From assembly GCA_903822595.1 (NCBI GenBank), contig CAIJPS010000014.1, positions 1 through 64,000 of the forward strand: DNA of 64,000 nt, in the 5' to 3' direction. The DNA comes from an uncultured Chlorobiaceae bacterium (GTDB lineage Bacteria; Bacteroidota; Chlorobiia; Chlorobiales; Chlorobiaceae). The notes below the pieces were generated by a model. The model was not told the origin of the DNA. It saw nothing but the letters and a program-made list of their open reading frames with translations, and made no database searches. Made by a program: the position numbers and the translations under genes. Below, one piece after another: positions 31,379 to 36,892 of this stretch (positions are counted from its first letter, which is position 1; each line of letters opens with the position of its first letter).

Positions 31379-33049
31379 ATGATACTGCTGTTTTTATTAG
31401 TGCTTCTTGGTCCAGCACTCTTGTCGTGGCCTCTCGGTCATGCAATGGCACTTTTGATAGACCCTGCTCAGACATCGAACTATGGTCGCTGGACTTCAGG
31501 GATTTTCAGCAAAACAGGAGGGGTTGCTGCCGTTGAAGAGCAGGATTGGAAAGGATATCTTTTTTCCATGCTGATATGCAATGTCGTCATGTTTGTTTTT
31601 GTGGCCATTGTTCTTGCCCTGCTGCAATGGATGCCGCTCAATCCCGACGGAAAGGGGCCGCTTGAGGCAAGCCTTATCTTTAATACGGTCTTCTCGTTTG
31701 TAACGAACACCAACCTTCAGCATTACTCTGGAGAGGTGTCCATGAGCTATTTTTCCCAGCTTTTTGGTTTGATGTGGCTGCAGTTTGTTTCGGCTGCGAC
31801 AGGGATTGCCTGCCTTGCTGCTCTTGCCAGAGCGCTGGGCGGGAGAGAGACGGTCGGCAACTTTTACTCCGATCTGATGCGGACCACTCTTTTTATTTTG
31901 CTGCCGCTTGCTCTGCTTGTTGCCCTTCTTCTTCTTGCTGGAGGAGTTCCGATGACCTTGAATGGTGCCGTAATTGCCCATACTCTTGAACATGCAACAC
32001 AGACCATAGCCCGAGGCCCGGTAGCAGCCATGGAGGCCATCAAACAGCTCGGAACAAACGGCGGAGTTTTTTTCGGGCCGAATTCAACCCATCCTTTCGA
32101 GAACCCATCTTTCTTTACCAATATCATAGAGTGTACCAGTATTGTTTTGATTCCAATGGGCGCGGTATGGATGTTCGGGCGCATAACGGGCCGAATACGC
32201 GATGCAGCGGTTATTTTTACGGTTATGATGGTGCTGCTTCTGTTGAAAGGAGCTGCAGCCGTATGGCTTGAAGGTGATCCAACAGCCGCATTTTCAGGAC
32301 TTCCTGTCGAGCTGTCATCGAATCTCGAAGGCAAGGAGCTTCACTTTGGGTCTGGTGCCGGTGCTCTTTGGGCGGCAGTGACGACAGCTACCAGCAACGG
32401 TTCGGTCAACTGCATGCACGATAGCCTTAATCCGCTGACCGGACTTGTCCCTCTTGCCGGCATGTGGATGAATGTCGTTTTTGGCGGGGTTGGCGTTGGT
32501 CTTATCAACATGTTCATTTTTATCATCGTCGGTGTATTTATCTGTGGCATGATGGTTGGTCGTACCCCGGAATATTTTGGGCGTAAAGTTGAAACCCGGG
32601 AAATGACGCTTGCACTTCTTGCGCTACTCGTTCATCCTGCACTGATTCTCGGCGGTACGGCACTTTTTGCGGCTACTCCCGCAGGTGCTTCAACCGTACT
32701 CAACACCGGGGTTCACGGTTTTACAGAAATTCTTTACGAGTTTACATCGGCAGCGGCTAACAACGGTTCAGGCTTCGAAGGGCTTGGAGATAACACGGTT
32801 CCCTGGAATGTTGCAACCGGAATCGTTATGCTGCTTGCCCGATATATTCCAATCATTCTGCCTCTTGCCATTGCCGGTTCTCTCGCTGCGAAAAAACCGG
32901 TTCCGGAAACTGCCGGTACTCTCCGGACCGATACCTTGCTTTTTACCGTCATTATTTTCGGCAGCGTTGTTTTTATCGGAGCACTGCTTTTTCTGCCGGT
33001 AGCTGTGCTTGGTCCTGTAGCTGATCATCTTGCAGCATTAAGGTATTGA
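31379..33049 (+). CDS. kdpA: K+-transporting ATPase subunit A
   Basis: 556 residues, about ten membrane helices, the channel-like subunit that binds K+. The selectivity-filter segments are present: FNTVFSFVTNTNLQHYSGE, LGTNGGVFFGPNSTHPFENP, ATSNGSVNCMHDSLNPLTG and FTSAAANNGSGFEGL. The reading frame is complete. No ribosome site is obvious before the ATG, so it probably depends on coupling to kdpF. Its partner subunit KdpB is truncated (next entry). Confidence 0.95.
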   Translation: MILLFLLVLLGPALLSWPLGHAMALLIDPAQTSNYGRWTSGIFSKTGGVAAVEEQDWKGYLFSMLICNVVMFVFVAIVLALLQWMPLNPDGKGPLEASLIFNTVFSFVTNTNLQHYSGEVSMSYFSQLFGLMWLQFVSAATGIACLAALARALGGRETVGNFYSDLMRTTLFILLPLALLVALLLLAGGVPMTLNGAVIAHTLEHATQTIARGPVAAMEAIKQLGTNGGVFFGPNSTHPFENPSFFTNIIECTSIVLIPMGAVWMFGRITGRIRDAAVIFTVMMVLLLLKGAAAVWLEGDPTAAFSGLPVELSSNLEGKELHFGSGAGALWAAVTTATSNGSVNCMHDSLNPLTGLVPLAGMWMNVVFGGVGVGLINMFIFIIVGVFICGMMVGRTPEYFGRKVETREMTLALLALLVHPALILGGTALFAATPAGASTVLNTGVHGFTEILYEFTSAAANNGSGFEGLGDNTVPWNVATGIVMLLARYIPIILPLAIAGSLAAKKPVPETAGTLRTDTLLFTVIIFGSVVFIGALLFLPVAVLGPVADHLAALRY

Positions 33050-34851
33050 GTCAGAATGAAATATCTGAAAGCATTAATCATAACATCATGATGAACAGTA
33101 ATTCCTTTCCGAGCGCCTATGATCAGGCAAAATCCGTGCGCCGTCAGGCGAGAAAAGCATCTATTTTTGAAAAAAAACTGGTGCAGAATGCTCTCAGCCG
33201 ATCAATAATGATGCTTGATCCGAGGGCAATGGTAAAAAATCCGGTCATGTTTGTCACTGAAGCTGGAGCTTTTCTGACAACGCTTATCGCGGTTTCAAAT
33301 GCACTGACCGGAGCCGGGCACCAGCTCTATACCGTTGCAGTCATGCTTATCCTGTGGCTTACGGTGATGTTTTCCAATTTTGCTGAAGCTTTGGCGGAAG
33401 CTCGTGGCAAAGCACAGACTGACACTCTCAAGAGAACACGACAGAGCACGGTCGCCCGAAGAGTAATAAATGGCAAGGAAGAGTCCGTAAGTTCTGACAA
33501 TCTGCAGGAGGGCGATCGGGTTATTGTTTTGACAGGCGAAATTATTCCGGGAGATGGAGAGGTAGTCGAGGGTGCCGCCATGGTCGACGAATCGGCTATT
33601 ACCGGTGAATCAGCGCCGGTTGTGAGAGAGGCTGGCGGCGACCGATCGGGTGTTGTTGGCGGAACAAGAGTCATCTCTGATCATATTGTCGTGCGTATTT
33701 CTGTTTCAGCCGGGCACTCTTTTCTTGATAAAATGATCGCTCTTGTTGAAGGGGCCGTTCGGCAGAAAACTCCGAATGAGCTGGCGCTGACCGTTACTCT
33801 CGCCGGTCTTACCCTTGCATTTTTGATGGTAACCGGTACGCTCTGGCCTATCGGCAGATATTTTGGGATAATGCTGCCTGTACCGACGCTGGTTGCTCTT
33901 CTTGTCTGTCTTATTCCAACAACTATCGGAGCCCTTCTCTCCGCCATAGGGCTGGCCGGTATGGACCGGGCACTTTCAGCCAATGTGCTGGCAAAGAGCG
34001 GCAAAGCGGTTGAACTTGCAGGCGATATCGATACCCTTCTGCTCGACAAGACCGGCACGATCACCATAGGTAACCGTCAGGCAACGGACTATTTCCCGCT
34101 GCCGGGTATCCAGAGGGAGCGCCTTGCTTTGGTCGCAATGAAGGCATCATTCGGTGATCAGACCCCTGAAGGAAAATCAATTATTGCCCTTGCTGAAGAG
34201 ATGCTGGGCATAAAGGCTCCTGCCGAAGTTGATGGAAACGTAGTGCCCTTTTCTGCGCAATCCCGAATGAGCGGCATTGATCTTCCTGATGGTCAGAGTC
34301 TGCGCAAGGGTGCGCCGGATACCCTCATCAGTTTTTGTGAAAAACAGGGTGGGAGTGTTTCGGAAAAGCTGCAGGGGCTGGTTGACGACGTTGCTCGCAA
34401 AGGCATGACACCAATTGTCGTTGCGGAAGGAGGTGAACTTCTTGGCAGTGAACTGATTGCCCAGCAGTTTACCCGACCGGAATATTTCTGGTCTCGTCCT
34501 TCGGCAGTGTCATGGAACGCCGCAGGAGCAGGAGGCAGCAATCTGTCGCCCGCATCGATGGCGGCACGCCAGAGAACGGAAAAACTGCTTGCTGAACTGG
34601 CACTGAAAAAAGGTGAAAAGGTACCTGCTGATCTTGTTACAGCTTCAGGTAGCGGTCTTGACCCCCACATTTCACTTGCAGCAGCCAAATTTCAGGTGCC
34701 GAGAGTTGCTTTTGCGAGGGGCCTCTCCATTGACCAGGTGCTGAGGGTTCTTGATAAACCGGCAAATGGAAAATCTATCCTCCCATTTACCAGTGAGTTT
34801 CTGGTCAATGTGCTGCAACTCAACAGATCGCTTGACCGACTGAAAAAATAA
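33046..34851 (+). CDS. kdpB: In-frame fusion of truncated KdpB and truncated KdpC
   Basis: 601 residues in one open frame. Residues 1 to about 467 are KdpB: actuator TGES (AITGESAPV), KLIPTTIGALLSAIGLAGMDR-like segment, phosphorylation site DKTGTITIGNRQ and most of the nucleotide-binding domain, ending VVAEGGELLG. From about 468 (SELIAQQFTRPEYFWSRPSA, SGGSNL-like AGGSNLSP, VTASGSGLDPHIS) the sequence is KdpC to its normal end. Missing are the last ~220 residues of KdpB (GDGxNDAPA hinge motif and the final membrane helices) and the first ~50 of KdpC including its membrane anchor. The pump should be inactive. TTG start chosen (AAGG ribosome site, TTGA overlap with kdpA); ATG at 33088 is the alternative. 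Confidence 0.92.
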   Translation: MSQNEISESINHNIMMNSNSFPSAYDQAKSVRRQARKASIFEKKLVQNALSRSIMMLDPRAMVKNPVMFVTEAGAFLTTLIAVSNALTGAGHQLYTVAVMLILWLTVMFSNFAEALAEARGKAQTDTLKRTRQSTVARRVINGKEESVSSDNLQEGDRVIVLTGEIIPGDGEVVEGAAMVDESAITGESAPVVREAGGDRSGVVGGTRVISDHIVVRISVSAGHSFLDKMIALVEGAVRQKTPNELALTVTLAGLTLAFLMVTGTLWPIGRYFGIMLPVPTLVALLVCLIPTTIGALLSAIGLAGMDRALSANVLAKSGKAVELAGDIDTLLLDKTGTITIGNRQATDYFPLPGIQRERLALVAMKASFGDQTPEGKSIIALAEEMLGIKAPAEVDGNVVPFSAQSRMSGIDLPDGQSLRKGAPDTLISFCEKQGGSVSEKLQGLVDDVARKGMTPIVVAEGGELLGSELIAQQFTRPEYFWSRPSAVSWNAAGAGGSNLSPASMAARQRTEKLLAELALKKGEKVPADLVTASGSGLDPHISLAAAKFQVPRVAFARGLSIDQVLRVLDKPANGKSILPFTSEFLVNVLQLNRSLDRLKK

Positions 34852-34863
34852 TTCCGTAAACGA

Positions 34864-36564
34864 ATGGTATCAAGGGCAGAGAGAGCTATGGATAGCAACA
34901 ACAGAGCCGACAGTTTTTTGCGTCTCATCCAGCGGTCGCAACGGGGTAAACTCAAGATTTATGTCGGGTACTGCGCTGGTGTGGGGAAAACCTGGCAGAT
35001 GCTGCAGGAAGCAAGGCGCCTTAAGGAGAGTGGCATCGACGTGGTTGTCGGCCTTGTAGAAACCCATAAAAGAAAAGAGACAGAAGCCCTCCTTTCCGGT
35101 CTCGACATCATGGCGCGTAAAATCCTGGTTTATCGCGGAATCGAAATTACAGAAATGGATATCGATGCGATTCTTCAGCGCCGTCCATTTGTTGTGCTTG
35201 TCGATGAACTTGCGCATACAAACATTCCCGGAAGCAGGAATTCCAAGCGTTATGAAGATGTTGAAGAAATTCTTGCTGCCGGTATTCATGTGATTTCGAC
35301 CATGAACATCCAGCATATCGAGAGCCTTTATGAAACAGTAGAACATGCAACTGGTGTGAAGGTCAAGGAAAGGGTGCCCGATCGTATGTTGTCGTTGGCC
35401 GATCAGCTTGTCAATGTCGATATTACCACCGATGATCTGCGGCAGCGTCTGAGAGAAGGAAAGGTCTATCTTCCCGGTCATTCGGGAGCTGCACTATCCA
35501 ACTTTTTCCAACCGGAAAACCTTGAGCAGCTTCGTGAACTTACTCTCAGGGAACTTGCGGCACAGCTTGATTCGAGGCGTCGTAACCAGTTTCATGATGA
35601 ATCTGTTTCGAATCCCGACCAGCTTATGGTTTGTCTCAGTTCAAAAACCCGGAATTGTGAAGCAATCCTGCGCTACGCATCTCGTATAGCAGGACGACTG
35701 AACAGAAACTGGTATGCAGTCTATGTTCAAACCCTTTCCGACAATCCAGCCAATATCGATGCGAGGGTACAACGGTTACTCTCCAATACCCTTGCCCTTG
35801 CCCAGCAACTCGGAGCTACCGTATTTACCTACAAGGGAGATGATGTGGTGAAGACCATTCTGCAGTTTGCAAGGGAGTATCGTGTCGGACATATCATTAT
35901 CGGTAATTCAGGACGAAAACTTTTATTTTGGCAGCGCCTTATGGGTCGGCAAACCGTTGTTGAGCAATTAATCAGTGAATGCCGGGGCATCAGCGTGATT
36001 GTCCTTGATACAAGAGAAGAGGATGCTGTGAAAGAACCAAAAACGCCTGCGCAACTTTTTTCCGGTATTAAGGAGACTTTTTCGACATCAAAGCAGTTGC
36101 AGAATGAATGGAAGGAACCGATTCGGAATGCAAGGGTCCTTTTATGGGAGCGTGTTCTGGAAAAGGAGGATGCTTTTCGTGAGCTTCTTCACGAATGTTG
36201 CTTGGCAAATCCTGGAATTGATGAGGCAAGCGCATTCCAGAGTCTCCTTGAACGGGAAAAACAGGGGGGTACATTTGTCGGGGATGAAATTGCTATTCCT
36301 CATGCAAGACTCCATAATCTGAACAAACCGGTTGTTGCTATTGGTGTCAACAAAATTGGTATTTATGATCGGGAATCAAGCAAAACCGCCAGGATAATCT
36401 TCCTGATGCTCTCTCCACTGTCAGATCCGAACAGTCATATCAGGCTTCTTGGAGCTATCAGTAAAATGGCTGCTGACAGCCAGTGGCGCAGTATGATGCT
36501 TCGAGCCGGGAACACAAAAGAGATTCTCCGGATTATAAGGAGCCGCTTGATTTTGTCTCGTTGA
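34864..36564 (+). CDS. KdpD-type sensor without kinase, fused to USP and PTS EIIA domains
   Basis: 566 residues. Residues ~20-235 are the cytoplasmic KdpD domain: Walker A GYCAGVGKTWQML, then GIDVVVGLVETHKRKETEALL, Walker B FVVLVDELAHTN and HVISTMNIQHIESL. Residues ~250-385 form a universal-stress-type domain (HIIIGNSGRKLLF). Residues ~420-560 are a type-2 PTS EIIA (PtsN-like) domain with its phospho-His in VGDEIAIPHARLHN (His480) and the tail HIRLLGAISKM. The four membrane helices, GAF, HisKA and HATPase of full KdpD are absent. It is therefore a K+/PTS signal integrator, not a kinase. ATG at 34888 is an alternative start. Confidence 0.88.
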   Translation: MVSRAERAMDSNNRADSFLRLIQRSQRGKLKIYVGYCAGVGKTWQMLQEARRLKESGIDVVVGLVETHKRKETEALLSGLDIMARKILVYRGIEITEMDIDAILQRRPFVVLVDELAHTNIPGSRNSKRYEDVEEILAAGIHVISTMNIQHIESLYETVEHATGVKVKERVPDRMLSLADQLVNVDITTDDLRQRLREGKVYLPGHSGAALSNFFQPENLEQLRELTLRELAAQLDSRRRNQFHDESVSNPDQLMVCLSSKTRNCEAILRYASRIAGRLNRNWYAVYVQTLSDNPANIDARVQRLLSNTLALAQQLGATVFTYKGDDVVKTILQFAREYRVGHIIIGNSGRKLLFWQRLMGRQTVVEQLISECRGISVIVLDTREEDAVKEPKTPAQLFSGIKETFSTSKQLQNEWKEPIRNARVLLWERVLEKEDAFRELLHECCLANPGIDEASAFQSLLEREKQGGTFVGDEIAIPHARLHNLNKPVVAIGVNKIGIYDRESSKTARIIFLMLSPLSDPNSHIRLLGAISKMAADSQWRSMMLRAGNTKEILRIIRSRLILSR

Positions 36565-36740
36565 AATTTTTTTTTGTTTTGTCTCGGCACTGACCTGGCG
36601 ATTTGTCTTTGATAGCGGATAAATTTCATGAGACTTTGTGGTAACAGAAAATATTTCGGCTTGCATTGTATTGCTTGTACAATTTTTTATATTTTGAGCT
36701 ACGAGTTGTTTGATGAATTATTGAATTTCTGTGCTGACCC
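36565..36740. other. Upstream region of the leu leader
   Basis: Short gene-free stretch; a promoter for the leader-leuA transcript must lie here but I could not single one out. Confidence 0.4.
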
Positions 36741-36827
36741 ATGCGTGTAACGAGCCTGAATAACCTTCTGTCTGTATTGGCCCTGCTGCTTCTTAGCATA
36801 GTGGCCCAGGAGGGAGGTGTCTTTTAG
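36741..36827 (+). CDS. leuL: Leucine-rich leader peptide of leuA
   Basis: A 28-codon frame, eight of them Leu, with four consecutive Leu codons (CTG CTG CTT CTT, codons 15-18) and further Leu at 6, 9, 10 and 13. It starts MRVTSLNNLLSV and ends AQEGGVF. It lies 180 bases before leuA and 30 bases before a terminator hairpin. The end of the frame contains GGAGGTG (36813-36819), which can pair with CACCTTC (36866-36872) in the terminator's left arm. Ribosome stalling at the Leu codons would leave that pairing free and block termination. No strong ribosome site is visible. Confidence 0.75.
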   Translation: MRVTSLNNLLSVLALLLLSIVAQEGGVF

Positions 36828-36857
36828 TTCGTTTTTCAGCCAAAGTGAACATTGTTA

Positions 36858-36892
36858 AAGCCGCCACCTTCGCAGGGTAGGTGGCTTTTTTC
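36858..36892 (+). terminator. Attenuator terminator upstream of leuA
   Basis: AAAGCCGCCACC, loop TTCGCAG, then GGT-A-GGTGGCTTT (one bulged A) followed by T residues: a 12-bp stem with T-run, 30 bases before the leuA start. With the leader peptide it forms the expected Leu-responsive attenuator. Confidence 0.8.

Follow-up and report, generated by a model that had tools for sequence, protein, structure and literature searches.

The leuA gene of an uncultured Chlorobiaceae bacterium (assembly GCA_903822595.1, contig CAIJPS010000014.1) is preceded by a Leu-rich leader ORF, a set of competing RNA pairings and an intrinsic terminator, and this element is very probably a ribosome-mediated transcription attenuator that would let transcription proceed into leuA when the cell is short of charged leucyl-tRNA. 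Leader and terminator were present together in 65/70 Chlorobiaceae leuA upstream regions. Computation showed the parts of the element and that they are conserved, as well as the alternative pairing and the bias toward a rare Leu codon. The window referred to below is the whole 64,000-nucleotide stretch of DNA that was analysed (positions 1 to 64,000 of the contig).

Organization of the leuA upstream region

The features of the window region are collected in Table 1. The leader ORF starts with the ATG at 36741 and has 28 codons, eight of them for Leu (codons 6, 9, 10, 13 and 15–18) with four consecutive, in full agreement with the preliminary description; there are no CTA codons among them. Inspection by eye gave no clear Shine-Dalgarno sequence 5' of the leader, and a consensus scan gave no promoter on the + strand near it; blocks resembling the promoter-like block of Table 1 sit about 40–80 nt 5' of the leader ATG in relatives (by eye). 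Helix P1 (AACGAAC with GUUCGUU in most loci) encloses the leader ORF, and segment 1 is able to pair with 36812–36818 in the free transcript (minimum-energy fold); both P1 and the segment 1:segment 2 pairing were absent from the preliminary description.

Table 1. Features of the leuA leader region in the window
Feature	Position	Strand	Basis or remark
Promoter-like block (TTG..., A/T-rich spacer, TATATT)	36661..36693	+	by eye; putative
Leader peptide ORF MRVTSLNNLLSVLALLLLSIVAQEGGVF	36741..36827 (stop TAG 36825-36827)	+	Leu columns conserved in 65 leaders
Regulatory Leu codons 9, 10, 13, 15-18	36765..36794	+	additional Leu codon 6 at 36756-36758
P1 5' arm (enclosing helix)	36749..36755	+	AACGAGC in window, AACGAAC in most
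P1 3' arm GUUCGUU	36827..36833	+	first base is last base of stop codon
Segment 1, ACCUUCU, over Asn8-Leu9-Leu10 codons	36763..36769	+	minimum-energy fold
Segment 2, GCCC-A-GGAGGG-A-GGUG, antiterminator 5' side	36804..36819	+	folding, conservation
Segment 3, terminator left arm and loop, antiterminator 3' side	36862..36878	+	folding, conservation
Intrinsic terminator	36857..36891 (stem 36857-36888, T-run 36886-36891)	+	folding, conservation
leuA, 2-isopropylmalate synthase, yeast-type family, 560 aa	36923..38605	+	TIGR00970

The terminator, AAAGCCGCCACCUU-CGC-AGGGU-a-GGUGGCUUU followed by the T-run, was found by folding and was not reported by a simple terminator scan, probably because of its bulge. 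A terminator with a T-run had been described here as a 12-bp stem; both are present, but folding gives a stem of 14 pairs interrupted by one bulge. Likewise, the two segments of the GGAGGTG:CACCTTC pairing proposed earlier do occur (36813–36819 and 36865–36871), but the best antiterminator duplex is longer, about 14 pairs, and lies in another register (36804–36807, 36809–36814 and 36816–36819 with 36862–36878). The 157-nt leader folded better than 200/200 dinucleotide shuffles (z −4.04). An equally good Leu-dense short ORF was obtained in 23/2000 dinucleotide shuffles of the 360 nt upstream in the window; taken alone, without its relatives, the Leu-rich ORF is only moderately unusual, and it is secure because it is conserved in those relatives.

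Conservation of the leader in Chlorobiaceae

A scan of genome contigs provided 80 loci, of which ten were from other phyla (L078, without a gene start, was not used); 69 loci together with the window made up the 70 Chlorobiaceae upstream regions. Five regions were dropped before counting: L010, with 28 nt upstream; L067, whose leader is truncated where the contig stops; L025 and L038, which have the terminator without a Leu leader; and L031, which has neither. Each of the 65 loci counted has a Leu-rich ATG ORF of 18–32 codons 5' of the terminator, with 4–10 Leu codons (median 7). The longest Leu run was 3 in 42 leaders, 4 in 20, 2 in two, and 1 in one. At least five Leu within 12 codons were found in 63/69 Chlorobiaceae upstreams, and 50/69 were at p≤0.05 in a Leu-ORF shuffle test (100 shuffles each). 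A tRNA gene stands directly before the leader, upstream of leuA, in L025, L028 and L032; that of L025 is apparently for Asn (by eye), and in this locus the leader is gone and the terminator alone remains.

Leucine leaders are known to use rare regulatory codons. The rare codon CTA accounted for 72/473 leader Leu codons vs 10/2525 in the leuA genes of the same loci, i.e., 72 observed vs 1.8 expected, and was present in 43/65 leaders; when the comparison was confined to 18 representatives (LeuA identity below 88%) the counts were 20/130 in leaders vs 3/707 in leuA. These data bear on whether the ORF might instead encode a small hydrophobic peptide (membrane or signal-like) with a function of its own, the RNA folds being secondary, as the resemblance of LALLLLSIVA to a short membrane segment would allow. 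We consider this most improbable: the hydrophobic positions are Leu, not Ile, Val or Phe (of the 1722 leader residues that follow Met, 473 are Leu vs 190 for those three combined), the CTA enrichment has no protein-level reason, and six loci (L018, L023, L024, L056, L057, L059) have lost the ORF's 3' end through frame changes or early stops yet retain the G-rich motif of segment 2.

Conservation of the competing RNA pairings

Pairing was assessed in an alignment of 56/65 sequences, from which nine divergent ones (L050, L052, L053, L056–L060, L064) were excluded. The antiterminator had 85.0% of its cells paired vs 41.7–62.3% when slid (1/500 shuffles was as high), the terminator 90.1% vs at most 65.2% when slid, and P1 88.2% vs at most 46.4%. 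When each arm was compared with its own vs a swapped partner (n=65), z was −4.43 for P1, −2.78 for the antiterminator and −6.84 for the terminator, with −0.64 and 0.02 for two negative controls; partner-specificity was absent from the segment 1:2 pairing (z −0.32). In the 18 representatives the effect was weaker: P1 gave z −2.55 and the terminator z −3.18, and the antiterminator was not significant in this divergent set (z −1.25, 2176/20000 permutations). The comparison with relatives that had been suggested at the outset found that the run of Leu codons persists throughout the Chlorobiaceae, as do the terminator and the pairing that competes with it, with pair-keeping changes.

The hairpin could also be read as a constitutive terminator, or insulator, between the kdp genes and leuA, with the Leu-rich ORF incidental; inter-operon terminators are common, and L025 and L038 keep the terminator in spite of having no Leu leader. 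This we regard as improbable, since the Leu run, the CTA bias and the ORF:terminator pairing are conserved jointly in 65 loci, and since the promoter-like block identified by eye is 5' of the leader, so that the terminator sits between this block and leuA.

Folding of the leader transcript and the proposed mechanism

The switch was modelled on a truncated transcript, in which the terminator left arm is out and the right arm is not yet made, because full-length equilibrium folding favours the terminator almost everywhere; P(terminator) dropped by more than 0.3 under a stalled ribosome in 19/65 loci only. As the terminator wins at full-length equilibrium, the switch must be kinetic, resting on the order of synthesis. 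Textbook attenuators likewise depend on the order of synthesis.

Constrained folding of the truncated transcripts of the 65 loci ranked antiterminator pairing as Leu stall > free > ribosome at stop. The share of segment 3 that paired with segment 2 was 0.30 in the free transcript and 0.13 with the ribosome at the stop codon, and over the Leu stalls its mean was 0.58 and its maximum 0.69, vs a stall mean of 0.36–0.39 for codon-order shuffles; 61/65 loci exceeded 0.4 in some stall. The response in the window was nearly all-or-none (0.01 free, 0.00 at stop, 0.52–0.61 when stalled at Leu codons 6–16); with Leu codon 18 in the A site the ribosome would cover segment 2, and the antiterminator was 0.01. 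Antiterminator pairing in the free transcript was below 0.2 in 36/65 loci, and some already forms in 29/65, about half of them, so that a protector state is not general. The claim, made from the letters of the window, of a leucine attenuator before leuA is thus supported by both the family-wide conservation and the three-state constrained folding.

We propose that when leucine is plentiful the leading ribosome would reach the stop codon and cover segment 2, and the terminator would form. When leucine is scarce the ribosome would stall on Leu codons 9–16, leaving segment 2 free to capture the left arm of the terminator while its right arm is still to be synthesized; the polymerase would then read through. 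If there is no translation, segment 1 and helix P1 would hold segment 2, and the terminator would again form. Translation of the leader, stalling that follows leucyl-tRNA charging, a changed efficiency of termination, and the response to leucine are what we infer for the living cell.

Control by leucine through a T-box, a ligand-binding RNA, or the translation of leuA, instead of termination, appears very improbable. There is precedent in the actinobacterial leuA element, which has a Leu leader and for which classical attenuation was judged unlikely in the portion of PMC1262725 drawn upon here. Against this, the window matched no leader family of Rfam (Leu_leader included) and no T-box at gathering score, and no match below that score was credible, the sub-threshold ones being weak and unrelated with Leu_leader not among them; furthermore, the antiterminator targets the stem of a T-run-bearing terminator, not the leuA ribosome site.

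The leuA gene and its neighbours

The product of the window leuA scored 736.1 bits against TIGR00970, above the curated cut-off of 697.4, and the closest leuA relatives of this genome are from Chlorobiaceae. A second LeuA, of bacterial type, is encoded on another contig of the same genome within an ilvD-ilvB ... ilvN-ilvC-leuB-leuA-leuC-leuD-cimA cluster (leuA and cimA named by NCBIfam, the rest by reading translations), from which it follows that the window leuA is a stand-alone isozyme. Visual inspection of the sequence leading up to ilvD showed no Leu leader for the ilv-leu operon. The prediction is that, of the two LeuA enzymes of this genome, the stand-alone one would be leucine-responsive.

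Upstream in the window (33046–34848), kdpB is joined in frame to kdpC, with an internal loss: residues 36–468 match positions 3–440 of the 675 in the KdpB profile, and residues 458–600 match 43–190 of the 193 in KdpC. The KdpB and KdpC parts are about 900 nt further apart in the relative L168. The potassium pump is here without the rest of its P-type ATPase, which may represent a real deletion or an assembly fault. The next gene (34864–36561) encodes a KdpD-like sensor that lacks the kinase and carries a fused PTS IIA-like domain (by NCBIfam, KdpD_non_kinase at 15–380 and PTS IIA-like at 426–558, both below cut-off), and it adjoins leuA in three relatives too.

Distribution of the element and possible co-transfer

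A covariance model, R1, was built from the 56 aligned sequences, and it recovered the nine left-out sequences at 31.0–89.3 bits. Within the genome of the window R1 gave one strong match only (E 1.3e-30; next 0.3). Matches were obtained in 81/86 Chlorobiaceae genomes (two of the 81, G806 and G810, being weak) and in 0/12 genomes from other families of the same order. Of the genomes covered by both the leuA search and the R1 search, 31 carry this leuA, and in 31/31 the match was directly upstream of the gene (positions compared by eye). Second, weaker matches away from leuA were seen in three Chlorobiaceae genomes (G814:C100:22939-23056, G797:C67:21446-21547 and G010:C13:69489-69650; E 6.6e-6 to 2.3e-4), and these could be further attenuators or chance terminators. 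Outside the Chlorobiaceae, in a phylum sample of 148 genomes, there were no LeuA relatives above about 31% identity among the matches listed.

Two loci from other phyla gave clear R1 matches before leuA: L072 of Elusimicrobia (50.2 bits, whole-genome E 1.8e-8, leader MKQKLTNLNLLLLNLLLQLKTAADGVF) and L073 of Omnitrophota (42.9 bits, whole-genome E 9.7e-7). The L072 element is about 580 nt before leuA; this spacer (266–849 of L072) contains a direct repeat of some 47 nt and is perhaps a later insertion. L074, L077 and L079 scored 30.8–33.8 bits in a small search; whole-genome searches (G152, G153, G154) gave equally strong matches elsewhere and did not report the L074 site, and for this reason the claim for these three loci rests on position together with the Leu leader (shuffle p 0.005, 0.070 and 0.035, respectively). 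The R1 element was absent before leuA of L080.

In the leuA tree, L072, L073, L074, L077, L079 and L080 formed one clade with the Chlorobiaceae (support 100/97), and the Elusimicrobia gene adjoined the Chlorobiaceae (98/81). The distribution of this leuA was patchy at E≤1e-120: 2/145 genomes of Omnitrophota, 1/149 of Elusimicrobiota, 10/52 of SAR324, 39/149 of spirochaetes, and 12/149 in a sample of the phylum containing Clostridiales. As the leuA genes that carry the element fall in a single clade, the switch was probably inherited along with this leuA lineage and probably travelled with the gene between phyla; this is the simplest reading of the sequences, under thin sampling. We give about even credence to the broader proposal that the attenuator (leader, P1, antiterminator and terminator) and the yeast-type leuA constitute a mobile unit across Chlorobiaceae, Elusimicrobiota, Omnitrophota and FCPU426, whereby a recipient would gain, in addition to the leuA it already has, another isopropylmalate synthase under leucine gating; the transferred unit would work at once, needing only the host ribosome and polymerase.

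Leu-rich ORFs were also detected before leuA in 5/6 tested SAR324 loci at p≤0.025 (L081, L121, L122, L123 and L126, not L125; 200 shuffles), with terminators present by eye, and in 3/10 tested spirochaete loci at p 0.005 (L075, L133, L144). As R1 matches in both groups were at chance level, these leaders are called analogous, not homologous, and they may be independent. Nine yeast-type leuA loci from the phylum of the Clostridiales locus were shuffle-tested and L151 alone was low (p 0.02), but 311 nt separate the end of its ORF from the gene and it was not counted; L148, one of the nine, had a score without a null.

Comparison with known systems

The mechanism proposed is known, being that of a classic leader-peptide attenuator; its lineage and distribution are apparently undescribed in the literature searched, and its distinctive properties appear to be the enclosing helix and the apparently mobile unit of gene plus switch. 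Leader-peptide leucine attenuation would thereby reach an entire family of photosynthetic bacteria and, less firmly, several candidate phyla in which little is known of how amino-acid genes are regulated. The element offers a clean comparative test for the co-evolution of a codon run, an enclosing helix and competing stems, and is a possible case of regulation transferred with its gene.

The leu operon attenuators of proteobacteria (Rfam Leu_leader) have a Leu-rich leader with rare Leu codons, 1:2, 2:3 and 3:4 pairings, and an intrinsic terminator, and control leuA. The Chlorobiaceae element resembles them in its short Leu-rich leader, rare Leu codons, competing pairings, intrinsic terminator and proposed control of leuA, but differs in having no Rfam match (likeness was compared through Rfam only), a stand-alone yeast-type leuA in place of a leuABCD operon, and helix P1 around the leader ORF.

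No description of a leu attenuator in Chlorobi was found in the literature searched; the 2010 comparative survey of Lopatovskaya and others (PubMed 20198868) may cover it. In the parts of a 2010 survey used here (PMC2965389), the authors knew of demonstrated systems of this kind in Proteobacteria and Actinobacteria only, to which they added Firmicutes; the same source gives a hisS T-box, a different device, in Chlorobia. In the sections consulted of another paper, the sole mention of Chlorobia is as a group whose genomes were too few for its statistics (PMC4833913). The earlier remark that Leu attenuation is best known from proteobacteria and actinobacteria was incomplete: experiments support a Leu-rich attenuator for ilvD of Staphylococcus aureus, where, according to the portion of that report used, mutations relieve repression (PMC5794164), and the actinobacterial leuA element was argued to be non-classical (PMC1262725, in part).

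The S. aureus ilvD system is like the present one in pairing a Leu-rich leader peptide with a terminator outside the proteobacteria; as described in the portion used, it governs an ilv-leu operon, and its proposed antiterminator sequesters the poly-U and leaves the terminator stem intact, whereas here the left arm would be captured (PMC5794164). The actinobacterial LEU element likewise has, ahead of leuA, a leader ORF that contains a Leu codon run; the extracts relied upon present it as a candidate pseudoknot in whose base stem that run pairs with the Shine-Dalgarno box of leuA, with classical attenuation judged unlikely, whereas the target here is an intrinsic terminator (PMC1262725).
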